From Ichthyosporea sp. XGB-2017a (taxonomy: Eukaryota > Opisthokonta > Ichthyosporea), in assembly GCA_002811675.1 (NCBI GenBank), contig PDIM01000041.1:162074-192744 (forward strand): a DNA stretch of 30,671 bases. Direction: 5' to 3'. The first letter of the stretch is position 1; every line of letters starts with the position of its first letter. The notes beneath the pieces were generated by a model. That model searched no databases. It had not been told where the DNA came from and was given only the letters and a program-made list of their open reading frames with translations. Both the position numbers and the translations under genes were made by a program. This document shows, in pieces, positions 1 to 26,276 of this stretch.

Positions 1-95
1 GAATTCCTGTTGTAACTTATGAATGGATTATCCAATGCATTATTCAAGACACTGTTATAGACTGGACGTCGAATAGTGTCTATTCTTATAATTAA
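1..95 (+). CDS. C-terminal end of a BRCT-domain protein (partial, 53BP1-like)
   Basis: An open frame enters from the left edge (codons from base 3) and stops with TAA at 93-95, giving 30 residues. They read like the last helix of a BRCT domain: VVTYEWIIQC has the conserved Trp and the Cys that follow a Val-Val strand, and the chain then ends in a short Tyr-rich tail. BRCT repeats bind phosphoproteins in DNA-damage signalling. The EWxIQCxI wording, with the stop soon after it, resembles the end of the tandem BRCT of 53BP1-type mediators, but 30 residues cannot settle the subfamily. It converges on the RING gene ending at 248. The BRCT assignment is fairly likely; the 53BP1 assignment is a guess from pattern memory. 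Confidence 0.5.
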   Translation, partial: IPVVTYEWIIQCIIQDTVIDWTSNSVYSYN

Positions 96-198
96 AATTA
101 AGCCAGTAGAAAGTCGCCGAGCACATCATGTACTAATTAACGAACACACTTCAATGCACAACGAAACAATTCAAACAAAACAAGAAGCTATTTTGAAA

Positions 199-213
199 AA
201 TAAAATGTTTATT
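199..213. terminator. Back-to-back poly(A) signals of two convergent genes
   Basis: AATAAA lies on the + strand at 199-204, about 105 bp after the BRCT stop. TTTATT at 208-213 gives AATAAA on the - strand, 35 bp after the RING gene stop. The two hexamers are four bases apart, so the 3' ends of the transcripts probably overlap. Seen directly as motifs; use as cleavage signals is inferred. Confidence 0.5.
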
Positions 214-247
214 ATTTTTATATAGTACAGAAAAAAAAACGTCCAAG

Positions 248-2735
248 TTATCTTCGACTACCATGTCTTCGCCTTGATGGCTGATTATTTGACGGTGGCT
301 GTGAAAAAGAGCCTGTTTTGACCTCGAACAGGCAAACAGGACACTTCCCCTTTATATACAACCAAGGATCGATACAGTATGAATGATATTTGTGTAAGCA
401 GGGTAGCACTTTGAGTGGGTCCCCTTCGTCAAACTCACTACGACAAATCAGGCAATCAGATCCTTCCGATTCAGAAGAATTATCTGAGTTAGTATCGCCA
501 GAATCCTCGTTCATTGGACCATTGCTACCTGAATAATTAAAAACAGGAAGCTGGGAAACTTGAGCTATGAAACAGAAAAGTTGTTAATAAGTGTTAATAT
601 GAATGATAATAACTAATACAATACATCAAGCAAACACACTTTTCATCTGTACTTACATGAGTTGCAACCTCGAAGACACTTCTTCTCCGAAAGTCTTTTC
701 ATATCTTCACAATACATTTGTGATTGCAACTGATGAGCGGCTTTTTCATCGCGGTTGGGCTTTTGGCTCCCCCCTGCCCTAGCATCTGTTTTTTCTCGAG
801 CACGTTTCTCTTGCTCTTCTCTATGCAACTCCTCTTGAAGAGCTCGAGCATAACTTTCGTCATCTTCAAAGAAAGAATGAAGGTCACCATCGCTGTTGCA
901 AGTCGTTTGGTCACTTGAGACTCCAGTAATACGCATCTTACTAGTTTCGCCACTTTGGATGCTCGTTTCTTTCGACTGCAACTCGCTAGGATCAATCATC
1001 CTATTTACACGGGAGCTGAATCCTGTGTTAGTTTCAAGTTCAGGTGTGCTAGCTTTTCTAACGTACGTCATTGGCTTCTTTCCTTCTCTTTTAGAGATGC
1101 GCAAGGCCTCCTGAAGCCCAATATCTCCAGTTCTATTCATTTCATCGCAATTCTTTGAAATATCTTTAATCACTGGTGCTTCACCACTACTTGCAATAGA
1201 ATTGTTATCTGATATTGTTCCCCTCTCGGAGTTTGAGCTTTCGGCGTCCAATGTTTCATTCGCGTTGTGTATTTGCGTGCTTAAACAAAGACTTTCGAGT
1301 ACAACAGATTCGGGAACTCCATCTCCATCTTGCGCTATGTAATTTCCTCCCAACTCTCTAAAATTATCAATATCGTCCATTTCGTAACTACGCTCGAGAG
1401 AAGACATGTCATACGTAAGGTCACCCAGCCCTGTAAACTTAAGTTCTACTTTAAATGAACGAGGAATCATGAGGTCGCTACGCGGCAAATTCATTTCGTC
1501 TTTCCCAATAACATACTTCCCCGAATCACCAAACAAAAAGCAAGGGTGGAAAGTAAATGAGGCAAGAAGTTGCCCGTTGCCGTCAAGTGGAAGGTGATAA
1601 AGCTTGACAATAATATCACGTTCAATATATTTTTCCACTGGAATTTTGATATTTTTCCGCTCTGCACACCCTTCGATCACATTGTTTGCCATATCCATAT
1701 CATTAATACCCTGAACAATCGACGAAAATATCGTCGCTTCCTCTGAATTGACCATTACCATAGGACGAATAGTGTCACCCATGGGGGGCGCCTTAATTCT
1801 AATTCTCTTTAAATATGCTCTATGAGATTCACCAGTAGAATGACTGGAATTCACCATCATGTTATTAAAGTCCTTCAAGAAACGGGTATGAGTAGGCTGG
1901 ATTGCAAAGGCAGACCCTTGAAGAAGTTTGTTATCTGGCACTTTGTACATCGATTGAAAGAGCAAGCTAAATGCCTTCATGCAATCTTCTATGCGCTCCT
2001 TTGCGGGCATCCAGGAGTTACTTGGTTGAAGCGCACCAGTTGAGCACAGTTTTGTGCTTCTGTGCATACAAAAAAATAGCACACATATCGCTACCAGGCA
2101 CTCATGGCCTGGGTTGCAATGCAAAACAGCAATGTTTGTTTGGTCAGAAGAGAGCCATGACTTAACAGATTCACACATTGCTACTATTGTTTCAAGCCTT
2201 CAAGAGACGGAAGAAAAAGATTTACGCATAAATAATAAAGAACATTATATTTCATAAAGATATCTGCAAGTGAATGTCATACCTAGGAGGGAGATCAGTG
2301 TTTTCAGCGAGAAGTGATGGGTTTGAAAAATCAAGTATAATATGTTCAAACATTGGTGCCGGTAAGCCAATGTTACACAGATTGTAAACCATATACTTAT
2401 TCTCATGGTACTTTTCAAGATATTTAAAGGCAGACTTTGTCTGAAAAAAAGGTAGCGTCACGACCATTGTTTGCAGAAATATTTGTTAGTATTATCACAA
2501 AACTACTGTGCGAAAAGTAAACTAAAGGCAAACTTACCTCCCGAAGCTTCTTCTGTGGCCTCACAAATGGCTCAGCAGTGGTAGAGGGAAAAGAGAATCT
2601 CCTTTTATCCCTCTTTCTCAACCCAGATTCTGTTGAAAGCCTAAGAATATACAAACCCTTTGTTACCTGAAATAGATTTGAATTTTTGGCACCGCTTCCT
2701 GTGTGGCCATCAAAGAACTTTGCTAGAGTCTTCAT
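248..2735 (-). CDS. PTEN/tensin-like pseudophosphatase with C2, UIM/MIU-like motifs and a C-terminal RING-H2 finger
   Basis: Four exons join in frame: 2735-2538, 2440-2283, 2197-657 and 528-248, giving 725 residues. Introns are 97, 85 and 128 bp, all GT-AG, with phases 0, 2 and 1. Residues about 25-240 follow the PTEN/tensin/auxilin phosphatase fold (KYMVYNLC, then LPPRLETI, then VLHC). The P-loop reads HCNPGHEC at 145-152: the Cys is kept but the catalytic Arg is Cys, so lipid or protein phosphatase activity is unlikely. Residues about 246-375 match the tensin-type C2 membrane-binding domain (ending SFKVELKF). A UIM-like motif (LQEALRISKRE, 480-490) and a MIU-like motif (DDESYARALQEEL, 564-576) suggest ubiquitin binding. 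Residues 658-698 form a perfect RING-H2 (C-x2-C-x14-C-x-H-x2-H-x2-C-x10-C-x2-C) with the Trp and Pro typical of E2-binding RINGs. Inferred role: a membrane-tethered ubiquitin ligase. The start is the first ATG before the fold. The architecture is one I do not recognise. Confidence 0.8.
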
Positions 2736-3212
2736 GATGCCTGGACTGATTCGTATAGGTTGCGGGGATATTTATTTGTTCGATACGCTGTGTGGGATAT
2801 GAGTGGAAGAACAAATCTTTGTAGTTGACGAAACGAGAGGGGGGCTTGCAAGAGATTGGCTCAAAGACAAGAATATGGTTCCGCCTAACAAGGGAGAGGA
2901 GGTGAACCAAGAATGAAATAAATCGTCAATGATCAGCTGGAGGGACCCGATCACCCCAATATGCACTTCCAGGCATAACCCTCCTCGGAATCCAAGGTCA
3001 CATTCCTGTGGCCACCAGTGCGGAAGGGACCAGCTGGGGGGTCCCTAGTGGACTTTTCCTCCATACATAATGGGGGGATTGAGGTCCCGGTCCGTATTTT
3101 TCTGTATTTTTTTTTATTCACAGAAATAACGAAATAGTGGTAGAGGTGCACAGCGAGGAAAGGAATAGTCATATCCCTGCTTGCCAAGGAGCTCGAGCAC
3201 ACAACGGGGGGG

Positions 3213-4698: not shown

Positions 4699-5307
4699 TC
4701 AAGAATAAGACTCGTCAGATTCGCAATCATCTTCAGGGGCCACACCATCACAATAAATGTTTCCGTCATAGTTAATAAGGTCACCCAGTGCCTGTGCAAG
4801 CTGTTCAGTTTTAAAGTTGTCAACACCTCCAAACATATCAAAACCAGGCATTTGTCCCATCACTTTGCCTTTCTTGACCAGCACAAGGGTGGGCATGATA
4901 GTAATTTTGAGTCTTTCGGTAAGAAACGGGGATTTCTCTGCATCAATCTTAATAAATCGGCACTCCATATGCTTTTCTGCCAACTCAGAAAGATGACGAT
5001 CCAAAATTTTGCATCGCCAAGTTGTATTGCGGAAAAAGTGACAGACAATATTATCACTATTCTTCGACACATTAAAGAATTCCTTCTCCCCGTCAATCAA
5101 AGTGTATTTACCGTGCCCATTCGCCCTCCATTCCTCCTTGCGTTTCGCCATCTTTTTCAATTGATCTAATCTTTTTCTTCTAATAGCTTCTAAATCGTCT
5201 TCTTCCAAATTGTCTAACTTATTGAGCTCACTGTCTACCTGCTGTTCCACCATCTTTGCAGCGTCCAGCAGGTGCTTTTCAAAAGCAGCGCTCAAGTTGG
5301 GATCCAT
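4699..5307 (-). CDS. TXNDC9: Thioredoxin domain-containing protein 9 / phosducin-like protein
   Basis: A single-exon gene of 202 residues with ATG at 5307. TXNDC9-type proteins are cytosolic phosducin-like cofactors of the CCT chaperonin and act in actin and tubulin folding. The N-terminal ~65 residues are a charged helix (EEDDLEAIRRKRLDQLKK). The thioredoxin-like fold follows from about residue 70 (EFFNVSKNSDNIVCHFFR, then RFIKIDAEKSPFLTERL, IMPTLVLVKKG and FGGVDNF), and the acidic tail is rich in Asp, Glu and Ser. The active-site CxxC is absent, as is usual for this family, so redox catalysis is not expected. Length is normal (human about 226). It shares a divergent promoter region with Snf7. 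The long open frame on the opposite strand (4546-5169) is an antisense shadow. Confidence 0.92.
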   Translation of the reverse strand: MDPNLSAAFEKHLLDAAKMVEQQVDSELNKLDNLEEDDLEAIRRKRLDQLKKMAKRKEEWRANGHGKYTLIDGEKEFFNVSKNSDNIVCHFFRNTTWRCKILDRHLSELAEKHMECRFIKIDAEKSPFLTERLKITIMPTLVLVKKGKVMGQMPGFDMFGGVDNFKTEQLAQALGDLINYDGNIYCDGVAPEDDCESDESYS

Positions 5308-6063
5308 GTTGCTAATAACGGATTAACAGCACACTAGTTAACACAGACAATCACTCAAAGTTCACGGGGAGATACCAGCAGCAAATATGTGGGGAGTATT
5401 GCGCCTTTCAAAACAAGTTAGAGGAAGTTGATGATTCAGTTAGGCCTAATTCAGTCCGATCCTATGAATCTCTGTCCAGGCAAGAAGTTACAGCAGCACT
5501 TAGGATGGAGAGCGCCAGGCTGCCAGCTAGCCCGATTAATAAAGCAAGGATTAAAGCCTCCGGGGGGGGTTACGAGGGTTATAGGCAGAAGTGTGCTGTG
5601 TGATTTCCCCCATCCCCATCTCTGTACCTCCCTTGTGTTCCTATAAATCCATCGGAGAATTCCTCTCTAGCCCCTCCAAGGGACCCCCCCTATGGGTTGC
5701 AGCAGGCAGCAGCTGATCATGATCATGCATGCAGATCACAGCTGCGCGCACTCTAGCTGAGCTGTACTGTCATTGATTGTGGCCACAGCTTGCCTGTCAT
5801 GCCAACCGCTTTTTTTCTATGGGCCAGTCCAATTGATATGATTATCATCATTCGACGGCCTTTGTATTTTATTATTTATTATATTTATTACTTAGGTGAC
5901 GTGGGAAAGATTGAGAATAGTCGGGTATTATAGATTATTGACCTTGGAGTTGGATTTGAATTAGCTTGTGAGTCCGTCTCGTATATTCTTCAGCATAGAA
6001 GTTGTATTATCTTTTTAGTGTTAGTTTATTTAATTTATTATCTTTGATTTTCCAGTTTACAGA
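5308..6063. promoter_or_regulatory. Divergent promoter region of TXNDC9 and Snf7
   Basis: This 756-bp interval separates two divergent starts. It contains a G run and CCCCCC tracts (5562-5690), a TATA-like CCTATAAATCC near 5640, and a palindrome-rich patch at 5711-5770 with two adjacent TGATCA words (5714-5719 and 5720-5725), GCATGC and CAGCTG. The 180 bases before the Snf7 ATG are AT-rich. No open frame or RNA gene was recognised. Confidence 0.4.
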
Positions 6064-6793
6064 ATGAATCTTTTTGGGAAGGCGAAAAAGGCCCCTCCGG
6101 CCAAAGACAGTATTCAGAAGTTAAGGGAAACAATGGAACTTTTGGAAAAACGAGAACAGTTTCTCGAAAAGAAAATTGAAAATGAACTCAAAACTGCCAA
6201 AACGAATGCTTCAAAAAATAAGAGAGGTAAGTAGAAAGGCTCGATTGAAAGGAAATTTAGGTAACTGTGGCATTTGACTAACCAAAACATTTTATTTGGA
6301 ATCAAAAGTGGCGCTTATGGCTTTGAAGAGAAAGAAGACATATGAAGCTCAAATAGAGAAGATTACAGGAGCAAGAATGACTCTGGAAACGCAGGTGTTA
6401 ACAATTGAAAACGCAAGTGTTAATTTGGAGGCAATGAATGCAATGAAAATGGGTGCACAGACGATGAAGGATATACACGGGGCATTTACTATTGATAAAG
6501 TTGACGAGACCATGGATGAAATTCGCGACCAAATGGACGTTGCCAATGAGATTGGAGAAGCAATTTCACAGCCTGTTGGCTTGGGTATGGAATTTGATGA
6601 TGACGAGCTTGCTGCGGAGCTTGATATGTTAGAGCAAGAAGAGCTAGATTCTCAACTTTTGAGTACCGAAGCTGCCACACTGCCTAGTGTTCCTGTGGGA
6701 GAGCCTGTCTCGCCAAGCAAGGCTGAAGGTAAGAAGAAAAAGACTGCAGAAGAAGAAGAACTGGACGAGTTGCGAGCCGCCATGGCTATGTAA
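6064..6793 (+). CDS. CHMP4: ESCRT-III subunit Snf7/Vps32 (CHMP4)
   Basis: Two exons, 6064-6226 and 6309-6793, separated by an 82-bp GT-AG intron (phase 1), encode 215 residues. Snf7/CHMP4 polymerises on membranes to drive multivesicular-body budding, cytokinesis and membrane repair. The start MNLFGKAKK and the basic helix (LRETMELLEKREQFLEKKI) are typical, as is the ALMALKRKKTYE motif that spans the exon junction. The core helices contain NAMKMGAQTMKDIHG and VDETMDEIRDQMDVANEI. The acidic second half (DDDELAAELDMLEQEELD) is the autoinhibitory part, and a C-terminal LDELRAAMAM helix resembles the MIM1/Bro1-binding end. Family length is 215-240 residues, so the gene is complete. An AATAAA at 7033-7038 could end the transcript. 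Confidence 0.95.
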
Positions 6794-7159: not shown

Positions 7160-8032
7160 TCATTTGTCTTTTTTCTCAAGATCAGCAACCATTTCGTTGT
7201 AGTTTTCTAACATACTGTTACGCGCCTTCTCCACCAAGTCGTTAATATCGTCCTTGGTGAGTCCTTTTGTTGGGATTGGCTTCAATACACGAAGAGAGGC
7301 CTGACCACTATTCCACAATCCTTTCTTCTTACTATAGAAGTTGAAGAAGGGAGAAAATACAACTGGGACTATAGGAACTTGAGCTTTAACGGCTACATGA
7401 AAAGCACCTTTCTTAAAAGGAAGCATACCTCTTCCATGGTGGCGAGTTCCTTCGGGATATATCCACACACTAACGTCATTTTCAATCATCTGCTCGGCAC
7501 ACTGATCCATAGCTTTGAAAGCTTCAGCTTTTGAAAATCTATCAACGAGAATATTTCCCGAAAGGTAAAAATACCAGCCGAACAGAGGGATATAAACCAG
7601 AGACTTCTTCCCTAACGCTGCAGCTCGAGGGGGCCAACATGAACCCATCAAGAATAAGTCAAGCGAGCTCTGATGATTAGCAATATACACACAAGGCTGA
7701 TTTTCCATAAGATTTTCAGTACCAAATCTATCAATCTTTATCCTAAAAATCCATTTGTTTGACATGTCGAGCAGCCAGGCCGTGAATGAGTTTAAATGAA
7801 CCCCCGGATAACGACCAATGCCACAAACCCCCAGAAGGCCTTTGATCAAGCCCATAAGCGACACGAACATTAATACCCAAAAGTATATAAGCATTTTCAC
7901 ATAATACTTGATCCAGTTAGGCTCTGGTTCTGGTCCAAAAGAGAAGCTTTCATGTTCTTCAAGATCCTCTGGCAGCGAGTTGACACTAGAGGTGGTAGCA
8001 TCTGCTGCCCCCTTTGCATCCTTTTTCCCCAT
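7160..8032 (-). CDS. 1-acyl-sn-glycerol-3-phosphate acyltransferase (PlsC family)
   Basis: A single-exon gene of 290 residues with ATG at 8032 (MGKKDAKG); the frame is open eight codons further upstream, but only to a GTG. The enzyme transfers an acyl chain to lysophosphatidate to make phosphatidate, normally in the ER membrane. Residues about 43-70 form a hydrophobic membrane segment. The catalytic NHQSSLD (NHx4D, 119-125) is intact, as is the substrate-binding YPEGTR (192-197), followed by GMLPFKKGAF and VPIVPVVFSP. These spacings match eukaryotic AGPAT1/2 and yeast Slc1. It lies convergent to Snf7 and divergent from CCDC24. Which AGPAT paralogue it is cannot be told from motifs. Confidence 0.92.
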   Translation of the reverse strand: MGKKDAKGAADATTSSVNSLPEDLEEHESFSFGPEPEPNWIKYYVKMLIYFWVLMFVSLMGLIKGLLGVCGIGRYPGVHLNSFTAWLLDMSNKWIFRIKIDRFGTENLMENQPCVYIANHQSSLDLFLMGSCWPPRAAALGKKSLVYIPLFGWYFYLSGNILVDRFSKAEAFKAMDQCAEQMIENDVSVWIYPEGTRHHGRGMLPFKKGAFHVAVKAQVPIVPVVFSPFFNFYSKKKGLWNSGQASLRVLKPIPTKGLTKDDINDLVEKARNSMLENYNEMVADLEKKDK

Positions 8033-8320
8033 TCTATTATATTGATTGATCTGCACTTACTGTAATTTGATAGTAAATGTGGTGAGGGTCAGAGTCGAGA
8101 TCTAGAGCTAGTCGATGGCAACTGCTCGAGTGATAACACAAACATCAACAGCTATAATATATTGTAATAATTTTAGCAGCTATGTAAGTACATGACATGA
8201 TGCATGATCATGCTGCACAGCGCTGCGATCGATGATCATCGCGCCGCACCCGCCGCCGCGCGACAAGCTACAGTATAAGTCAGCCCACGTAAATGGTGTA
8301 TCACGTGATGCCTACTGGGT

Positions 8321-11687: not shown

Positions 11688-12246
11688 TATGCATTTCCCT
11701 CCCCTTTCACGCAAAAGTATGTGCCCAAATCTGTATGAGTATATATCTGGATCAAAAGTATTCGTTTGCCTGCTGTAGCTTTAGATACAAGGTCAGTGTT
11801 GCAAGACCATAATTATAAGGCATAAAGAGCAGGCCTGTAGTGCACACACACCAATACAGTCCATAGAATGATACTATAATTCTGGCACTAGGCAGCCAAT
11901 GGGGGCTTTTCCAAATATAGCTTCCTAGTCCCGTGAAACCACGTGCAGGGTTAAGGGCTAGGGTTATAAATTATTATGAATCATGATCTGTACGCGTGGC
12001 ACCTTTTCCCTCACTCGAGTACACTGAGGCAGCTTGTTGTTATTATTATTGTTATGTATCTCGCTCCAGCTACAGTCTCACAGTGCACACAGATAAAGAC
12101 TCTGCCGAGACAGAGACTGCTGACTCATTAGTTTAGTTGCCTTAATCTCCCTGGTGTAGTACTGTGCCAAGGCTCTTAGATCGGTTGTTCGAAAAGTACC
12201 GGGCCCGTAGCTTGCAGTGGTTGGTGTGTCTGTGCGTGTCTGTGGG
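11688..12246. promoter_or_regulatory. Divergent promoter region of DRC9 and Lon
   Basis: A 559-bp interval. It contains a CCAAT box near 11896, a CACGTG E-box at 11940-11945, a telo-box-like TAGGGTT at 11959-11965 overlapping TATAAA at 11965-11970 (reads toward Lon, 277 bp before its ATG), and CTCGAG near 12014. No RNA gene or convincing small open frame was found; the opposite-strand frame at 12078-12401 mostly overlaps the Lon presequence and is a shadow. Confidence 0.4.
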
Positions 12247-15117
12247 ATGTTGAGAAGTCTGGGTAGCGTGGTGCGTGGTGCCACCGTCGTGGCGCGGGGA
12301 GTTGGTACCACATCAGGAACTCGGTCGTTTGTCGCGTGGCCCACATTTTCAAATATTAAGAGCATTGGCGTTGGTGGTAAATCTACCGCGGGAAATAACA
12401 TTATGAGACCTTTGGGATTCCGATTTTATGGTGGTTCAGTAGGTGGTGGTGATGACGACGAGAAAAGTGACGGTAAGCGTGCAAAAAAAGGGTCAAAAGA
12501 CAAAAGTGCAACAGAGAAGACCAAGAATGGTGCGGAAAACGCAAAAGAATCGAAGCGACGCTCAAAGAGTGGGAGAATAGTAAGAAAAAGGAGTGCTGGC
12601 TCGGGTTTCGAGGAAGTTGTTATGGAAACTCCCACTATACTTGACCGAGAGAGAAGTGAAAGTGCGCCTTCAATGGGTAATGACTCACCGGCTAAAAATG
12701 AGGGATCTTCCCTTGTGGAATTTGGGGTTCCAAAACTGTACCCGGAAGTGCTCGCTCTTCCTATAACGCGACATCCTATATTTCCGGGATTTGTAAAACA
12801 TATTGAAATCCGAAGTAAAGAACTTGCTGCCATCTTGCAGAAAAAAATTGATAATGCGGCGCCATATGTGGGAACATTTATGTACAAGGACGACAACAAA
12901 ACAGATGAAATTATCAAAGATATTTCAGAGGTTTACGATGTTGGTTCATTTGCCCAAATTCAAAGAATCACAAAGTCCGAAAATGGGGCATTTCAAGTTC
13001 TACTTTTGGCTCATAGAAGAATCAAGATAAATTCAGTTATTGAGCAAGACCCGTTTATGAAAGTTAAGGTTGACAACTTGAAAAATGAGCCATTTGAGAA
13101 GAATGATGATTTATTGAAAGCAACGTCTGCTGCTGTTATTTCAACAATCAAAGATATCCTTCGTCTCAATCCTCTTTTCAAAGAGCAAGTTCATTTCCAG
13201 GCTCTGAATAGTCAGATATTTGACAATCCAGGACACTTGGCGGACTTTGGGGCTGCTTTAACTAGTGGAGACAGTGTCGAACTTCAAAGGGTTCTTCAAG
13301 AAGTGAATATTCAAGAAAGACTGAATTTGTGTCTCCATTTGTTAAAAACCGAACTGGTTGCAACGAAGCTGCAGGAAAAGATTGGGCGTGAAGTTGAAGA
13401 GAAAATATCAAAAAACCAACGCCAGTATCTACTTCAAGAGCAGTTGAAGAAAATTAAAAAGGAGTTGGGAATCGAAAAAGATGACAAGGATACTGTAATT
13501 GAAAAGTTTAGAAAGAGAGTAGAGGATTTAAAGATGGAAAAACACATCAAGGAGACCATAGATGAAGAGTTGGCCAAGCTATCATATTTGGATCAGAATG
13601 CCTCCGAGTTTAACGTTACCCGAAACTACCTTGATTGGCTCACCAGCATGCCATGGGGAAAGTTTAGTGAGGAAAATTTTGACATTAGTAGAGCCAGAGA
13701 GGTTCTAAATGCTGATCACTATGGATTGGAGGACATTAAAGAGCGAATTCTTGAGTTTATTGCTGTTAGCAAACTTAGAGGCTCAAGTCAAGGGAAAATT
13801 CTATGCTTCATAGGCCCCCCTGGTGTGGGAAAGACGAGTATTGCAAGGTCTATTGCCGAATCGATTAACAGAAAGTACTTTAGATTTAGTGTGGGAGGAA
13901 TGAGTGACGTCGCTGAAATTAAGGGGCACAGAAGAACTTATGTTGGTGCGATGCCGGGAAAAATTATTCAGTGTCTGAAGAAAACGGAAACGGAAAACCC
14001 TCTTATTCTAATTGATGAAATTGACAAACTTTCGGCTAGCCGACAAGGTGATCCGGCGTCCGCTCTTCTAGAATTGTTGGATCCGGAGCAGAATAAGAGT
14101 TTTCTTGACCATTACATGGATGTTCCGGTGGATTTGTCAAAGGTTCTTTTTATCTGTACTGCTAACGTTTCGGATACCATTCCAGGCCCCTTGCTCGACC
14201 GAATGGAACTGATCAGGGTTTCTGGCTACGTCACTGAAGAGAAAGTTGCAATTGCTAAACAATATCTTATTCCCCAGACAGCTAAAAGTACGGGAATTGA
14301 GCCTGCGAATGTAACTATCCACGATGATGCTATTGAAGGGCTTATCAAATATTACTGCAGAGAAAGCGGTGTACGAAATTTGCAAAAGCACATCGAAAAA
14401 ATCTTCAGAAAATCAGCCTTGAGGATTGTGGATAAAAATGAAAAGCAGATTGAAGTCCATCAACCGGATTTGAAAGACTTCGTGGGTCAGCCAGTTTTTG
14501 CCTCCGAGAGAATGTATGAGAGAACGCCGCCAGGTGTGGTTATGGGATTGGCTTGGACTGCAATGGGAGGGTCGACACTGTATATTGAAGCTTTGAATAC
14601 GGAATCGAAGTCGCCGTATAGCACAGATATGGAGAAGGACAAAGAACGGGAAGGGAAAGCTGGGTATCAATACACAGGGCAACTTGGGGACGTAATGAAG
14701 GAAAGTGCAAGAATCGCGTATACTTATGCGAAGCATTTTCTTGCTGAGAAGAGGCCTGAAAATGATTTTTTTTCTAAGGCGAATATTCACATGCATGTTC
14801 CGGAAGGTGCGACGCCTAAGGATGGGCCATCTGCTGGGTGCACAATTACCACGGCCCTGTTGTCATTGGCATTGAATACCCCTGTGTTGCAGGATACAGC
14901 AATGACCGGAGAAATTTCTTTGACTGGGAAGATATTGCCTGTGGGTGGAATTAAGGAGAAGATCTTAGCTGCAAAGAGGTCTGGCGTGAAGCACATTCTT
15001 CTTCCGGAACCGAATCGCAAGGATTATGACGATCTTCAGGAATTCATAAAAAACGACATCGATGTTCATTTTATTTCAGAATATGATGAGGTGTTCAATT
15101 TTGTACTCAAAGGATAG
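12247..15117 (+). CDS. LONP1: Mitochondrial Lon protease (LONP1)
   Basis: A single exon of 956 residues, ATG at 12247; the frame is open to an upstream GTG, but the ATG begins a clear matrix-targeting sequence (MLRSLGSVVRG, rich in Arg/Gly/Ser and poor in acids). Lon degrades oxidised and misfolded matrix proteins and regulates mtDNA. After a charged linker comes the substrate-binding domain (ALPITRHPIFPGFVKHIE, from about residue 155). The AAA+ module follows with Walker A GPPGVGKT (523-530), Walker B LILIDE (586-591) and an arginine-containing LLDRME. The protease domain has catalytic Ser862 in KDGPSAG and Lys903 in VGGIKEK, the Ser-Lys dyad. Length and dyad spacing match human LONP1 (959 residues). 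Intact and expected to be active. Only 52 bp separate its stop from that of IQGAP. Confidence 0.97.
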   Translation: MLRSLGSVVRGATVVARGVGTTSGTRSFVAWPTFSNIKSIGVGGKSTAGNNIMRPLGFRFYGGSVGGGDDDEKSDGKRAKKGSKDKSATEKTKNGAENAKESKRRSKSGRIVRKRSAGSGFEEVVMETPTILDRERSESAPSMGNDSPAKNEGSSLVEFGVPKLYPEVLALPITRHPIFPGFVKHIEIRSKELAAILQKKIDNAAPYVGTFMYKDDNKTDEIIKDISEVYDVGSFAQIQRITKSENGAFQVLLLAHRRIKINSVIEQDPFMKVKVDNLKNEPFEKNDDLLKATSAAVISTIKDILRLNPLFKEQVHFQALNSQIFDNPGHLADFGAALTSGDSVELQRVLQEVNIQERLNLCLHLLKTELVATKLQEKIGREVEEKISKNQRQYLLQEQLKKIKKELGIEKDDKDTVIEKFRKRVEDLKMEKHIKETIDEELAKLSYLDQNASEFNVTRNYLDWLTSMPWGKFSEENFDISRAREVLNADHYGLEDIKERILEFIAVSKLRGSSQGKILCFIGPPGVGKTSIARSIAESINRKYFRFSVGGMSDVAEIKGHRRTYVGAMPGKIIQCLKKTETENPLILIDEIDKLSASRQGDPASALLELLDPEQNKSFLDHYMDVPVDLSKVLFICTANVSDTIPGPLLDRMELIRVSGYVTEEKVAIAKQYLIPQTAKSTGIEPANVTIHDDAIEGLIKYYCRESGVRNLQKHIEKIFRKSALRIVDKNEKQIEVHQPDLKDFVGQPVFASERMYERTPPGVVMGLAWTAMGGSTLYIEALNTESKSPYSTDMEKDKEREGKAGYQYTGQLGDVMKESARIAYTYAKHFLAEKRPENDFFSKANIHMHVPEGATPKDGPSAGCTITTALLSLALNTPVLQDTAMTGEISLTGKILPVGGIKEKILAAKRSGVKHILLPEPNRKDYDDLQEFIKNDIDVHFISEYDEVFNFVLKG

Positions 15118-15169: not shown

Positions 15170-18100
15170 TTACTTGGCGTAAAATTTTTTGTTTAGAAGA
15201 TGAATCAATAAATTGATATTAATCTTGCAAAAATCAAACATGGTCATAATAGAAATACCATCATATTGCATTTGCAAAAGCTCGTCAAAGTGTATCTCAG
15301 TGCTTTCGTGAGGCACCCCAAGAAAAGTTCCTTTGAACTTAAAGACACCAATTTCATTTGACGAAATTTCAATAGTGACCCCTTTGCGTTCAAGTCGAGA
15401 AACTCCTTCCAGTTCAACAAGAACCCCTTTGTCTAACAGCTTTTGGGCACCGTACTTAAACGATCCAAAATGGTGTTTTTCCGATTTCTTCTTGCTACCC
15501 GAAAACAAGTTGGTTAAACTTATTTTTTTCTTGGGCTTTGGAACTGTTGTCATATTTTCAATGCAACTTTTGATATATTCTTGATAGTCATTGTCTTGCT
15601 GTTCATAGTACTTAGTTTTTTCATCGAGGCTTTCAACTGCGGTTGTCAACTTCTGGATTTCAGCTTTCCTCTCTCGCCGGTAAGCAGCTTGGTTCCTAAT
15701 ATCCTGTGCCAAAGAATTTAAAATCTCTTGATAGCCACTTTTCTTGGTAACAAGCTTCGCCTCTTCTAGAAGCTTCAAATTGCTCAAAGCCTTATCCTTC
15801 ACTTCTTGCAAATGCTGGCATTGGACAGCATCCGAAGCGGGCCTGTATGATGATGTGTGGCGCTCCTGCTTAGTTAACTTGCTATCATGCTCATCTTTCA
15901 AAAAATTGTTCTTGAGCACATTTGCGATATGATTTTGGTTTTGTTCATCAGTACAAGGAGTAGCAAAAATCTCAGTAAGGGTTTTCCCTGGCTGAAATCG
16001 AATAATGTTAATCAACAGCCGCTTGGTTCGCAAGAAAAGAACAGTTGTATCGTGGTCATCGTCTGGGGAAACTTCAAATTTGTTTTGCAAGGCAAGAGAA
16101 ATTTCACCCTCATTCGAGCACAGTGCTTCCTTACTAAGATCTTCGCATTCGGCAATATTGTCATTTGAGGTAAAATTTTCCACATTTGGGGCAGGACCCA
16201 AGTCATCAAGAATCTCTCTTAGTTTGCTGTCTTTGGTAGGACTAAGCTGGTCGATATGTTCGCAAAGAAGTGAGTGGGTAGAGTAGATTTCTTTGGGGGA
16301 AATATAAATAATAGGTCGAGATAAAGTACGTACTTCACTATATTGGTCAATACCAAAATGCTCTTCAGCACTTGAAACTGAAGACACATCCTTAAAAAAT
16401 ACTTTCATTTTCTCGAACCTTTCTGAAATATATTCATTAAGAACGCTAAGATAGCTTTCATCTTCCCCAAACCTCATGTTTGATGATATGTGCTGGAGCA
16501 TTTTCGAAATTTCACCCAAATTTCTTCGTTCATGGGAAGAAATCAACGCATCCGTAGAGGATTCAACAACATCAAAGGCATCGGGAGCAATGATGGCCGG
16601 ATTTACATACCTGTAATAAACCAAGTTGCCCACAACTTTTAGAATAATGTCTTCATCAGATGAACAGAATTTTTGCTTCAACATCTCTTTCAGTTTCATG
16701 GCAATGTACCTCATTCCGTAAGGGAATGAAGAAGAAGCGGAGTTAATAACATCCAAAAACTGATCAGTGTGTACCTTCAAGGCCTCAATTCTTTGGTTAA
16801 ATATGGCTTTGACGTGTTCATGCTTCAAAGCTTCTTCGGGGGATACCTCATAAGGCAACCCACTTGCTTTCCCAGTTTCAGCCTCGGTATTGTTAATCCA
16901 GCTTTTATAGATATCGACGGGATTAGTATTGAGGTGAAGATCAACCTGGTCAAGGACTTTAAGCATCAGGGGCCGTAGCAGTTTTCTCAGAAATAGCCTT
17001 TCTTTGGCTCCCCGGTTATAATGCACCACCATTTTGATTACAGTAGGATTACCGGACGTAAAGTCTTTTATCTCATTGACGTTCGTCATTTCCTCTCGGA
17101 TTGCACTCTCGAAGAGCTTTAGCAGTAAATATTCTTCTCTGCTATTTTGGGCATAATTGAAAACTGTTAGAACAACACTTTCCATGAATCGAGATGTTTT
17201 TGATGGCGGTTGCAAATACACAAGCTTTGCAAGATAATCTGGTTCAGTCTGAAGAAGATAAAATAAATGTTGATAACTTTCAAGCCTATCGCGCTTATCT
17301 TTGGTGAGCGCTTTTAGTCCCGCCTCATGCTTTTCTCCTGCAGGGATACTTTTCTTTTTATACTTTCTAGATTGTGCTACCACTTCATCCAAGCTAATAC
17401 GATTACGAACCAAGAGTCCAATCTTAATATCCATTATATTGAGCTGCTTGGCCAGCTTTTGGTTTTGTCTGATATTCAAAACAACTTTTTGTCTTAACCT
17501 CTGTAGCGCAAGCTCCTCGGCATAATCAACATTGCTTTGATCTAGAAGGTGAAGAAAGCTGCACACGGCACCAACTGGAGGGCACGTCTTTCCGGTCAAT
17601 TCCCTGTAGTGTTTTGTTGCACTTTTTTGCCTCCACCAATTCTGAATCTTCTTCGCGGGCTCTTCTTGATCATTTAAAAAATTCAGTCGGTTCTTGAATG
17701 CTTGTCTTTGTTTCACACCTCGAAACCAGCTCTGAATCGTGACAGCTTGAGCGGTTGAACTTCGTAACATGCTCAACCGAGAAAGGTATCTTCTTCGTGC
17801 AAGTGCGCCCCTAAAAAAAAAACTCAAATTTTTTAAAGCCATGGCTCTATGGTTCTGATCGCGCTCCTTTTTTAAATCATTTGCAAAGCGTCGCGCTCTT
17901 ATTCCTCGAACTAGAGTCTGCAAACGCAAACAGGCGTTTAATTTCAATGCAGAAATTTCCTGATTGACAGAAGCAATATGACGTTGAATTTCCATTTTTG
18001 ATAAAAAACAAAGTTCCTTTTGTTGTTGATCTATATCAGCATCTAGCGAATTTAAGCTACTGCCATAGCCACTTTCTAAATCTTCATCTCTCAAAGAAGA

Positions 18101-19273
18101 CATTCGTGACTTCATGGGAACTTTACTTCCATGGAGGGCCACACTTTGCTCATCGTCGTTAAGACTTGAGGAGCTCGATGACAACTCGCGGGCCTTATTA
18201 ACTTGAGCTTTCCTGAGTCGGTTTTGGTAAAAGCGGTAATTGTCGTTCTGAACAAAGCGAAGTCCCGCGTCCCTATTCTGTAGAGCTTGGAACGAAATAA
18301 TCGCATTGTTTTCCGCGACACGTTCATTGACTGCAAGAATGGCAACATTCTCATTTGCTTGGTCGAGAGCTTGCTGTATCTCTTCGCGGTCAAGAAGAGA
18401 ATCGTAAAGCTCTTCTGATGACTGGGAAAGGTCATTTTTTGACTTGCGACTCTGCTTAGCAGATAATGTTTCCAAGTACTCATTTATGTTCCCTAGCTGT
18501 ATATTTGTTAATTGGGCACATGGCAGAACCACACTAGTTTGGAGTTTATGGGCATCGTTTTCGGCCACGGCTTGGTTTATAGCAATGATAACAGCATGGA
18601 GTTCTGCGTCTTCTTCATTGAGCTCTTTGGCTAGAACGCCACCAACTTTGCTAAACGCTGGCATTTGTGCTCCATGCTTCTGAAGTTCTCTGTTAATGGC
18701 GTCAATTTCATCCTCAGTAAATTCAACTTTACCAACAAGATCGGACATCTTTGGCCCTAAGCCCTTTTTGAACAAGAAATGACTGAGGGCATGGATACAG
18801 TAAATAACCTTTGGCATGTTCTTTTTGTCGTAGAGGTCAGTAACAGTAGGAAAGAATATAGAAGGCAGGCCAACAGTCTCCATGAACTTGAACCATTGGT
18901 TGATGTTATCCGTGTGTCTAAATGAAAGTCCATTCTCATTGTACCGGGTACGATCGTAATCAAATATTTTCTTTTTCTTAATCGCATCTGGGATAATAAT
19001 CATTCCCAATTTCGCTAAATCTACGCCATTTCGAAGTTCTTCTTCAAGTTCCGAGGGTTTTGGAAGTTCTTCCTTTACACAGGCCTCCATCCACTCTTTG
19101 GCCTCTTGCAAATGGCACAGGTACTCATAGGCCATAATCTTTTTACGCTCATCATCCATCCAGTGGCCATCTTCACCCCCACTAGGAAGAGAGGAATTAT
19201 CCCTCTTCAGCTTTGCCCTGGGCTCATGCGCTCGAAACTCCTCCTTGGAAGCAGAGGTCAAAACACCATCCAT
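15170..19273 (-). CDS. IQGAP: IQGAP family scaffold protein
   Basis: A single exon of 1367 residues. IQGAPs link actin, calmodulin and Rac/Cdc42 in cortical cytoskeleton, adhesion and cytokinesis. Domains in order: calponin homology (about 45-165), IQGAP-type repeats with predicted helices (about 215-345), and four IQ-like motifs (about 448-462, 484-498, 510-528, 540-556; LQTLVRGIRARR, FFRGALARRRY, IQSWFRGVKQRQ, IQNWWRQK). The RasGAP-related domain (about 680-960) has the signature YYRYVNPAIIAPDAFDVV, and the RasGAP C-terminus (about 1150-1350) follows LLINIIRFQPGKTLTEI. The GRD appears to lack an arginine finger, as in other IQGAPs, so it binds rather than inactivates GTPases. No WW domain is seen, and the protein is about 290 residues shorter than human IQGAP1. 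Confidence 0.95.
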   Translation of the reverse strand: MDGVLTSASKEEFRAHEPRAKLKRDNSSLPSGGEDGHWMDDERKKIMAYEYLCHLQEAKEWMEACVKEELPKPSELEEELRNGVDLAKLGMIIIPDAIKKKKIFDYDRTRYNENGLSFRHTDNINQWFKFMETVGLPSIFFPTVTDLYDKKNMPKVIYCIHALSHFLFKKGLGPKMSDLVGKVEFTEDEIDAINRELQKHGAQMPAFSKVGGVLAKELNEEDAELHAVIIAINQAVAENDAHKLQTSVVLPCAQLTNIQLGNINEYLETLSAKQSRKSKNDLSQSSEELYDSLLDREEIQQALDQANENVAILAVNERVAENNAIISFQALQNRDAGLRFVQNDNYRFYQNRLRKAQVNKARELSSSSSSLNDDEQSVALHGSKVPMKSRMSSLRDEDLESGYGSSLNSLDADIDQQQKELCFLSKMEIQRHIASVNQEISALKLNACLRLQTLVRGIRARRFANDLKKERDQNHRAMALKNLSFFFRGALARRRYLSRLSMLRSSTAQAVTIQSWFRGVKQRQAFKNRLNFLNDQEEPAKKIQNWWRQKSATKHYRELTGKTCPPVGAVCSFLHLLDQSNVDYAEELALQRLRQKVVLNIRQNQKLAKQLNIMDIKIGLLVRNRISLDEVVAQSRKYKKKSIPAGEKHEAGLKALTKDKRDRLESYQHLFYLLQTEPDYLAKLVYLQPPSKTSRFMESVVLTVFNYAQNSREEYLLLKLFESAIREEMTNVNEIKDFTSGNPTVIKMVVHYNRGAKERLFLRKLLRPLMLKVLDQVDLHLNTNPVDIYKSWINNTEAETGKASGLPYEVSPEEALKHEHVKAIFNQRIEALKVHTDQFLDVINSASSSFPYGMRYIAMKLKEMLKQKFCSSDEDIILKVVGNLVYYRYVNPAIIAPDAFDVVESSTDALISSHERRNLGEISKMLQHISSNMRFGEDESYLSVLNEYISERFEKMKVFFKDVSSVSSAEEHFGIDQYSEVRTLSRPIIYISPKEIYSTHSLLCEHIDQLSPTKDSKLREILDDLGPAPNVENFTSNDNIAECEDLSKEALCSNEGEISLALQNKFEVSPDDDHDTTVLFLRTKRLLINIIRFQPGKTLTEIFATPCTDEQNQNHIANVLKNNFLKDEHDSKLTKQERHTSSYRPASDAVQCQHLQEVKDKALSNLKLLEEAKLVTKKSGYQEILNSLAQDIRNQAAYRRERKAEIQKLTTAVESLDEKTKYYEQQDNDYQEYIKSCIENMTTVPKPKKKISLTNLFSGSKKKSEKHHFGSFKYGAQKLLDKGVLVELEGVSRLERKGVTIEISSNEIGVFKFKGTFLGVPHESTEIHFDELLQMQYDGISIMTMFDFCKININLLIHLLNKKFYAK

Positions 19274-19723
19274 GATGTACTTGTCCTCCAGTGAAAAGGG
19301 TTGCTTGAAAACACAAGTGCAAGTGTGAATACTATCAACTAATATGATATTCAGGAAGGGGCTGGTGATTCAGGGATTAAAGTTAATCCAATACAACGCA
19401 AACAAATGCATAAAACAAGTCTGGTACGGGTAGGAGAAAAAAGGAAGAAGACCGGGCAGCTATTATATCCCTCTCCAACAAGTTGGGGGGAAAAGAGAGG
19501 GAATTAGGTACAGCCTGCAGTAGCCCCGAGGAATGTGCAGGAATGAGGCTATAAATAGGAGCCATTACTGCAGCAGCAGCTGGTGATGATTCTTCTACAG
19601 GCTGGCCTATTGCCCCACTGTCTCACAACTAGCAACCTCCTACTGATGCTACTACCGCTTGCTAAATCAACCAGCAGCAGTAACACAGCCACTTGTTTTC
19701 GACTGTTTGTTGCTTTTCGAAAT
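19274..19723. promoter_or_regulatory. Divergent promoter region of IQGAP and the ArsC-like gene
   Basis: A 450-bp interval with a strong TATAAATA at 19550-19557 reading rightward and a TATAAT-like word on the - strand near 19462-19470 reading toward IQGAP. A GCAGCAGC-rich patch at 19568-19580 lies where transcription from the rightward TATA box would begin. The frame of the ArsC-like gene is open back to an ATG at 19586, so bases 19586-19723 may be 5' leader or an N-terminal extension. Confidence 0.4.
19550..19557 (+). promoter_or_regulatory. TATA box of the ArsC-like gene
   Basis: TATAAATA in the context GGCTATAAATAGG is close to the eukaryotic consensus. A start site about 30 bases downstream would fall near 19580-19590. 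That puts the ATG at 19586 at or almost at the cap and leaves the ATG at 19724 with a leader of roughly 140 bases, which favours 19724 as the translation start. Confidence 0.45.
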
Positions 19724-20271: not shown

Positions 20272-23200
20272 TTATTTACAAGACAAGTCGTTATGTAAGG
20301 CCGCTGAAATAGTGCTAGGATCGAACTCTTGGTCAAAGGTTGAAACTCCGTAATTCTGCAGTGACTCCCTCAAGTCTTGAAGGAGTTCTACATCAGTTAC
20401 GTATTCCGCAATAAATTGTTTCAAATGCAGAAGAACTTTATGCCTGTCTTTAGATGAAGTTCTACTATTTTTTGCGATAGCAAAGGCTTTGTTTGCAATT
20501 TCTATAAACAAAACCTTTGGTAGCGAAAATCGGGCACGTACATCACTCAAGTACCTGATATTACCCGCCCCAATAATTTGTCTCAAAAGAATTTCAGGCA
20601 GCAAAGAGTCAATCTCAATTTCATACACTCTGGCCAAAGTTAAGGCCTCTTCAAATTTGTAGAAGCTGCAAACCAAATTAATGGCTTTATCCTTTTCAAT
20701 TCCAAACAAAGCACAATCAATATGCTTCATTTGTAAGGACAGTGCGTCGCTCATTCGACTACAATAGTTAGCTTTGTGCATCTTTTTCTCTCGCGTGTAC
20801 ACACAACTTCCCCGATCGTAGATTTCTTTAAGTGATGCATAAATCTCTATCTTTTGGCTCGGAGGGGTATGATTTAATCCTCTCCTGAAATTTTCAAACC
20901 AATGTTTACTTTCACTAATTATCCAGTCTATTAACAAATTGCTTTTGTAAAACTGGGCTAAAAAAGACCTCACTAGACTACGACGGCAAAGCCTTCGCTG
21001 CATGTGGTTCACAAGCTGATCAACAATTATCTTCTCCTTGTCACTACTACACAAAAGCATGTTTAGTCCAATCAACTTCTCACGATCCAACAAAACATCG
21101 AAAATAAAGAGGAAATCCACATACGGTAGACATGCTATCATCATATAGGTCAAAAGTAACCATTTTTCTTCACGTACATATTCGCACGATAAGGAACGGC
21201 CAAGTTCGATGCACTTTTCGAGACCATGAGTACAGTCCGTTGCATGGAAATAATGACAAGCAAATCGCAAAAGAACGGCTTTTTGAAATTGTGACAAGCA
21301 AAACCCAGGTTGCTTTAAATAGAGTAAAATATGTTCAGCGACTCGCACCAAGTATGAATGTGAGTGGGAGCAAAATAGTTCTATTACCGAATCCACTCTT
21401 TGAATGTCACTAGTACACAGATGAAGATCAATATTTTTGAATGATATTTCATCAATCGGAGCTACACAGAGAATATCTTGAATACATAGTGGCACGAGGA
21501 TTTCAAACTGAGTCTCAAAATCAATCATTTCCAATTCAGCATATGAATTCGCAAGGGGGGCCAATCCGCCTTGCAGGAAAATGTTTGCAAATACATCACT
21601 CGGATTCGCTTCTTGCAGTTGCAAAAACGTCAAACTAAGCTTGCGCGCTACTGTACATTTCAGTGCGATTGCTCGACAAAATGGTTCACAAATTTTTGTT
21701 ACTAGACTGAGCTGTTTGATCTGTGAGACTGCATCGCAAAGAAAATCGGACTCATCATTACAAATTTGCTTTTCTCTAAGCAAAAGTCGAATTGAAAAGG
21801 GCAATTCTTCAGGCACAAGCCATTCACAGGCGAGACACCATGCTGTATAAGCCAGATCGACCACATATTTAGAATCTTTTGGTTCTAAAAGCATCATAGA
21901 TTCTACAAAACAACCGCTATTTAAAAGGCAAGTTAATAAGGAGGGAGAAAGTTTGGTTTGCAAACCAGCAGACATTCCACACTTTGATGTTGATTCCAAC
22001 GATAGTTCACAGAACGTTGATTTCATGCATGAGAATACGTCTTTGAAAACTTCAAAAGGATCTTTGCAAACCAAAGCCCCGCTACTTTGGGATCTTGTCG
22101 CCCACAGCAAAACAAATGGTCTAATCAAATCGATACCATCTACTTCTATATTCCTAAAAAAAGCGCTTTGAAAGCCATCCGATAATAAACAAACGAAGAA
22201 GGCATAAGCATGCGCTGTCAAATAAGCTTTTGTGCTGAACATATTACTTATTTTACCGAATATGTTCAAGATACTTTTTTCATTTCCCCACGAAAGCTTC
22301 ACGGTCTCTTCCTTTAGCATACTGAACCCATAACTACAATGAACACTTTCCGCTGGTAAAGAAAACTCTTCCGATAAATACAGGGCTTCTTCGTACATGC
22401 CATTTTCAACAAGCCTCTCAATATATTCCTCCTCGGTTATATCTATAGAGCATGGAATATTTGTTGTACACATACTATGAAGGATCCCCCGATGACGCTT
22501 AAACGATTTGATAACCGCATCAGAAGTCAAAATGTTCGAATTGAGCACCAAGGTGCAGAAAGCGTTTCTTTCATCGGGTCCTTTATAAGACTTCAACTCT
22601 AAAAAGCACACCGCATCACAAAAATGATTTATCCATTTATCTTCCCTCTGCCATTCCCATCCAAATTTTTTTTGATATGGATGTGCAGCATTCAGTCTCA
22701 CCGACAGTACTTTTGAGATAGCTGTGCACTCTTTGAGAGCCTTAAGACGAAAAGCGTAGCAAAAGAACAGCAAATAGTAAAGTGGGGAATCAAAACAAAA
22801 TATGTAGCATGCGTTTAGAACGCTCATATAGCTTTTCTGTTCCAAGTCGGACATTATCAAGCGTTCAAGATCAGATATACCCATCAGCACTTTCTCATCA
22901 ACCCTTCTTTCCACTGTCTGAGAATTTCTTAGATCTCGTTTCACATTTGCGGGGCTACTTTGCCCACTGGAATTACAGCCACCTCTCGAAAACGCAGAGC
23001 TCGCCAATGTTATCCACATACAAAGACACCTCAACATATCCACCTTGCTTTGTGACCCCCCCACCAATATTAACAAAGGCTCCCTCATGAAATACCCACA
23101 CTTCAGCAGATTCTTGCACGAAGACTCAGGGCACTTTCCCCATTTCTTAATCACAGTAAAAAGGTTGGATTCTTTGATGAGGGAGGGTAATTGGGGGTCT

Positions 23201-25899: not shown

Positions 25900-26276
25900 T
25901 GCGTTTGGTGTAGATCTGGAGGGGTTAGTAGAGTGAGTCTTGCAGGATTTGTGTTTCTTGGTTGAGTAGTGTCATGTATTGCACACACTATAAGGCTCCT
26001 TTCTCCAGGGGGCACTGAAGAATGCAGTGGAGACTGGAGTCCTGCTGCTGCAGCCACGCATGACCAATTGAAAAAGTGTGTACTAGAGGGGCTGGGGGAT
26101 CTAGGGGTTGTGAGTCGATCAGCTGACTAGAGACTATTGATCGGGGCCCATGGCTGTATTCGACTGCTATCACTATGTAAATAAACTCCCTGTCAACAAC
26201 TGTCCTTGTTTCTCAAACCAACCACACTCCAGTAGAATCTCCCTTGAGGTGCTTGGAGTCACATCACTATCCCAAA
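25900..26276. promoter_or_regulatory. Divergent promoter region of spatacsin and PEX22
   Basis: A 377-bp interval between divergent starts. It has short G-rich tracts (GGGGCTGGGGG near 26088, CTAGGGG near 26101), a CGATCAGCTG word near 26116 and weak TATA-like words (ACTATAAGG near 25987). No open frame or RNA gene recognised. Confidence 0.35.

Follow-up and report, generated by a model that had tools for sequence, protein, structure and literature searches.

A predicted fusion of a PTEN-like domain, a C2 and a RING-H2 in the ichthyosporean Chromosphaera perkinsii

One gene of Chromosphaera perkinsii appears to bring together three parts whose arrangement, a PTEN-like domain followed by a C2 and then a RING, is well supported by its sequence. 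We think it most likely that the product is a RING ubiquitin ligase tethered to membranes. Its membrane binding, ubiquitin binding, ligase activity and cargo are matters we infer, and we give about an even chance to the proposal as a whole, namely that a single gene encodes a dead PTEN-like domain with its C2, a MIU-like helix and a RING-H2, and that the protein acts at membranes in the way set out here. The PTEN-C2 unit would retain the protein at a membrane that bears phosphoinositides, much as is proposed for auxilin and the class II formins. The MIU-like helix would bind ubiquitin carried by cargo or by the enzyme itself, and the RING would recruit E2~ubiquitin and modify proteins at the same membrane, perhaps slowly given its non-basic linchpin. 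A stricter version, in which PTEN-C2 reads phosphoinositide, the MIU-like helix reads ubiquitin and chain extension by the RING is confined to membrane cargo bearing both marks (a lipid-gated ligase), we hold to be unlikely. Were the protein to work as proposed, ubiquitin ligation would join clathrin uncoating and actin assembly among the known effectors of PTEN-C2 units, and a lineage close to animals would possess a compact, natural link between phosphoinositides and ubiquitin.

The gene lies on the minus strand near one end of the window, by which we mean the whole stretch of 30,671 nucleotides that was analysed. Its features, in window positions, are these:

2538..2735, minus: exon 1, residues 1-66, beginning at the first in-frame ATG; identical in the public protein Nk52_evm69s1810
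2283..2440, minus: exon 2, residue 67 into residue 119; identical in Nk52_evm69s1810
657..2197, minus: exon 3, residue 119 into 633, with the remainder of the PTEN-like domain, the C2 and a linker holding UIM-like and MIU-like motifs
2060..2197, minus: the first 138 bases of exon 3, coding for 46 residues that include the signature loop; skipped by the public model
248..564, minus: exon 4 with the RING-H2; a second in-frame acceptor stands at 528
2038..2434, minus: PTEN-phosphatase-like region, residues 69-172, split by intron 2 (phmmer E 1.6e-8 to PTEN, 1.4e-4 to auxilin)
2098..2121, minus: signature loop HCNPGHEC, residues 145-152, with the Cys of HCxxGxxR retained and the Arg gone
1432..1818, minus: PTEN/tensin-type C2, residues 246-374 (Pfam PF10409, 27.0 bits against a cut-off of 27.1, E 4.2e-6)
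1084..1116, minus: UIM-like core LQEALRISKRE, residues 480-490 (in 3251 of 50000 linker shuffles)
826..864, minus: MIU-like helix DDESYARALQEEL, residues 564-576 (broad pattern in 525 of 50000 linker shuffles)
332..457, minus: RING-H2, residues 669-710 (Pfam PF13639, zf-RING_2, 45 bits against a cut-off of 27.3, E 1.3e-11)
208..213, minus: AATAAA, past the RING exon; from the start codon down to window position 1 the strand has no other

The PTEN-like domain and the C2

What marks the PTEN/auxilin/tensin superfamily, a PTEN-like domain followed by a tensin-type C2, was found by sequence search, and the two stand in the same order as in PTEN. The phosphatase part was assigned from phmmer matches to PTEN and to auxilin (chain 3n0a), with residues 1-375 as the query and no DSPc profile among the evidence; the alignments to solved PTEN chains stop at residue 172, short of the C2. 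The C2 is a single Pfam match marginally below its cut-off, by 0.1 bit in the 737-residue model, while in Nk52_evm69s1810 it scores 27.1 bits. Two of the four profiles that the sequence-only reading had suggested, PTEN_C2 and zf-RING_2, gave matches; the other two, DSPc and UIM, were absent from the 12 Pfam families found at E<=10, as were DnaJ and FH2. The searches did recover, in the order it had proposed, PTEN-like similarity, a tensin-type C2 and a RING-H2. An AlphaFold2 prediction for residues 120-400 (the exon-3 part) from the single sequence had a mean pLDDT of 33, too low to use. The same genome's second PTEN-C2 protein, a PTEN-formin, is 29% identical to residues 73-149 (BLASTP E 1e-8, one comparison), and the distance from signature loop to C2 is about 30 residues greater here than in that PTEN-formin.

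The signature is HCxxGxxR (PMC2386819), and PTEN's own loop reads HCKAGKGR. In the window protein both lysines and the arginine of that loop are missing: the aligner pairs the arginine of PTEN with a gap or an adjacent residue, and none lies nearby. Phosphatase activity is unlikely with this arginine lost, and the domain is probably inactive as a phosphatase, in keeping with its earlier description as a pseudophosphatase.

The same fusion could be put to another use, with the PTEN-C2 unit acting as a protein–protein scaffold that chooses the substrate and not as a tether to lipid. Tensin-like PTEN-C2 units can act as modules that bind other proteins, and a loop stripped of both lysines and the arginine makes lipid contact through the pocket less likely. 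Yet the tensin-type C2 has apparently been retained, and inactive kin, such as the PTEN domains of plant formins, are thought to localize the proteins that carry them (PMC2386819). We regard the scaffold as somewhat unlikely and keep the membrane tether as the preferred reading.

Exons, the public gene model and 46 disputed residues

Four exons running from 2735 to 248, separated by GT-AG introns throughout, make one reading frame of 725 residues if the exon-4 acceptor is 528 and of 737 if it is 564, with no internal stop in either version. The introns of the 737-residue model are 97, 85 and 92 bases long; the first in-frame ATG begins at 2735, and the last base of the stop codon is 248. The coordinates first proposed for these exons proved exact, and the 725 residues counted at that time are reproduced when exon 4 starts at 528. 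The largest piece of the gene is exon 3, which sits in a 518-codon open frame. AATAAA occurs on the minus strand at 3118, 2776 and 213 within window positions 1-3200, and ATTAAA once, at 1170, within exon 3.

A search of protein sets with the whole protein led to EukProt entry Nk52_evm69s1810, 679 residues from the same locus, in which PTEN_C2 and RING were already united in one public protein. The Nk52_evm prefix belongs to C. perkinsii, an ichthyosporean (PMC6981761), whose genome was described as 34.6 Mb with 12,463 genes and RNA-seq used for the annotation (PMC5560861, which names BioProject PRJNA360056 for the public RNA-seq). The assembly analysed here holds 25.06 Mb in 291 contigs. Nk52_evm69s1810 can be rebuilt from the window letter for letter by moving the start of exon 3 from 2197 to 2059 and that of exon 4 from 564 to 528. 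The public model drops 138 bases, a multiple of three, either by an annotation error or through an in-frame alternative acceptor.

If the gene were spliced as in the public model, the 46 residues that hold the signature loop would be left out, and the product would be a C2 and a RING behind a disrupted phosphatase fold. The start at 2059 is preceded by CAG with a T-run, and the 46 residues have next to no codon-usage signal (0.7 bits over 45 codons, or 0.02 bits per codon). On short pieces this test says little, since one frame of intron 1 itself scores 0.10 bits per codon. By the same measure exon 1 is weak (5.1 bits over 66 codons, 0.08 bits per codon), as is the RING exon (7.7 bits over 93 codons versus 4.5 in another frame), and exon 3 beyond the disputed part reaches 101 bits over 467 codons. 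The acceptor at 2197 likewise has a pyrimidine-rich tract, however, and the 46 residues read through without a stop and match PTEN by themselves (phmmer E 7e-4; auxilin 0.077), whereas Nk52_evm69s1810, which lacks them, finds no PTEN chain in the best 60 of 70 matches (down to E 1.2). On homology, then, the acceptor that the sequence-only reading had chosen, 2197, beats the public one. We find it quite improbable that the public splicing is the true state, and conclude from the sequence that the longer exon 3 is a real exon, or belongs to at least one real isoform. The public gene model probably loses the pseudo-active site, and surveys built on Nk52_evm69s1810 could overlook the PTEN-like domain.

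The RING-H2 and the ubiquitin-binding motifs

The eight zinc ligands of the RING, in C3H2C3 order, are C670, C673, C688, H690, H693, C696, C707 and C710; of the solved structures, ARK2C matches it best (E 7e-13). Calling it a textbook RING-H2 holds for these ligands and fails one residue further on, at the linchpin, which is the position next after the last cysteine. Here it is Leu711, non-basic where a basic residue is common, though not universal: ARK2C has Arg, and the five aligned RING relatives have Lys (four) or Arg (one). The leucine suggests modest activity or the need for a particular E2, and the ligase may be weak or even inactive. Taken to its end, this would make the RING a degenerate adaptor with no ligase activity of its own, and the uniformly basic linchpins of its aligned relatives speak for that. 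The intact zinc ligands speak the other way, and so do Ile672 and Trp700, both also present in ARK2C and both at E2-contact positions in related RINGs. The linchpin is, moreover, often cationic but variable, XIAP being a ligase with Tyr there (PMC12326332). We would be surprised if the RING were degenerate, and continue with it as a candidate ligase.

Two ubiquitin-binding motifs had been proposed in the linker, and they fared differently. The UIM pattern combines an acidic stretch with an L-x-x-A-x-x-x-S core; in the window protein the core comes without the acidic stretch, the strict pattern is unmatched, the Pfam scan at E<=10 holds no UIM, and we rejected the candidate as its core occurs at chance level in the linker shuffles. 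The MIU pattern is that of an inverted UIM helix with a central Ala. DDESYARALQEEL fits it and is plausible as a putative ubiquitin binder, although shuffled linkers also yield the broad pattern at the rate given above; tighter patterns turned up in 12 and 0 of 50000 shuffles, all the UIM and MIU patterns having been composed after the sequence had been seen. The region also gives a weak match to CCDC50_N (13.1 bits versus a cut-off of 27). A MIU-like motif precedes the C-terminal RING-H2 in four of five aligned RING proteins (present in the four from plants, absent from the fungal one), a sample that is not independent since its members were retrieved by words from the MIU-RING region itself. 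In RNF168 the central Ala of the MIUs is required for binding (PMC2699339).

It is very improbable that the fusion is a prediction error and the RING exon part of a short transcript of its own: exon 3 could indeed continue to a stop at 643, and exon 4 has an in-frame ATG at 514, before the RING, but just 92 or 128 bases part the two exons, their junction has a GTAAGT donor and pyrimidine-rich acceptors, AATAAA is lacking between them and present past the RING exon, the public annotation joins them, and a MIU-like motif and a RING-H2 co-occur in the four plant proteins.

Relatives, genomic surroundings and known systems

Searched as a whole, the protein returned one match among 5624 candidates at E<=1e-3, and residues 22-390 returned one among 2423 at E<=10; both times it was Nk52_evm69s1810 itself. 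Residues 555-737 gave nine matches among 132 candidates at E<=10, one of them Nk52_evm69s1810 and the other eight RING proteins (five of which were aligned), with PTEN_C2 absent from the listed domains of all eight. The searches reached relatives of comparable length with exact words in common, which excludes many distant PTEN kin and makes an absence weak evidence. Human PTEN, at about 403 residues, falls just below the lower length limit. Within that reach no ortholog was found, which leaves the fusion without support from conservation. Viral contigs held no match to the window protein. In the open-licence literature searched, by title and the start of the abstract, no protein combining PTEN-C2 and RING came up. 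The earlier remark that no protein with this combination had been described agrees with the protein and literature searches, whose reach among eukaryotes is limited. The parts are all known; their combination, PTEN-C2 with RING, is new to us, and so far comes from one species.

The same genome has a PTEN-formin gene (G000:C166:69837-73213, plus strand), with a PTEN-like domain whose HCTNGRHR preserves HCxxGxxR, a PTEN_C2 of 37.6 bits, a proline-rich stretch and pieces of FH2. PTEN-formins were recorded, as of 2008, in plants, prasinophytes and stramenopiles (PMC2386819). When the whole assembly was scanned with the PTEN_C2 profile and with the PTEN-C2 of the PTEN-formin, the PTEN-formin locus was the only one seen, with no stand-alone PTEN; both scans, limited by introns and sensitivity, also missed the window gene.

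The neighbouring open frames of the window have no evident tie to the PTEN-C2-RING gene:

4702-5322, minus: thioredoxin, with a weak phosducin match
6278-6790, plus: Snf7
7163-8056, minus: acyltransferase
12214-15114, plus: Lon protease
15173-19369, minus: RasGAP with a calponin homology domain, presumably IQGAP-like
20275-25971, minus: a 1899-codon frame with Spatacsin_C

Among known systems, auxilin and GAK share with the window protein a PTEN-like domain followed by a tensin-type C2, and their PTEN-C2 unit is inactive. They differ in what follows or precedes it, since the window protein has neither a J domain (no DnaJ in the Pfam scan) nor a kinase domain and ends in a RING-H2. The PTEN-formins (plant class II, prasinophyte and stramenopile) likewise use the PTEN unit as a building block, with an effector half that is FH2, for actin, where the window protein has a RING and no FH2. 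Those of plant class II and the prasinophytes have lost the same signature arginine, and for the plant class II domain the suggested role is localization rather than catalysis (PMC2386819).

On the ligase side, the RING-H2 resembles that of ligases of the Arkadia/RNF165/RNF38 type, ARK2C having Arg where Leu stands here; the N-terminal half of the window protein is unmatched among them. RNF168 combines RING and MIU in one protein, as is plausible here, but its RING is N-terminal, its MIUs are two and it is a chromatin protein (PMC2699339). In the four plant proteins a motif like DExxAxxLQExL is followed, as here, by a C-terminal RING-H2 with CPVC; PTEN_C2 is absent from their Pfam lists. In the NEDD4-type C2-WW-HECT ligases a C2 brings a ubiquitin ligase to membranes, a pairing that the window protein, as a candidate ligase, would share; the ligase domain is a HECT there and a RING here, and the NEDD4-type ligases lack a PTEN-like domain.
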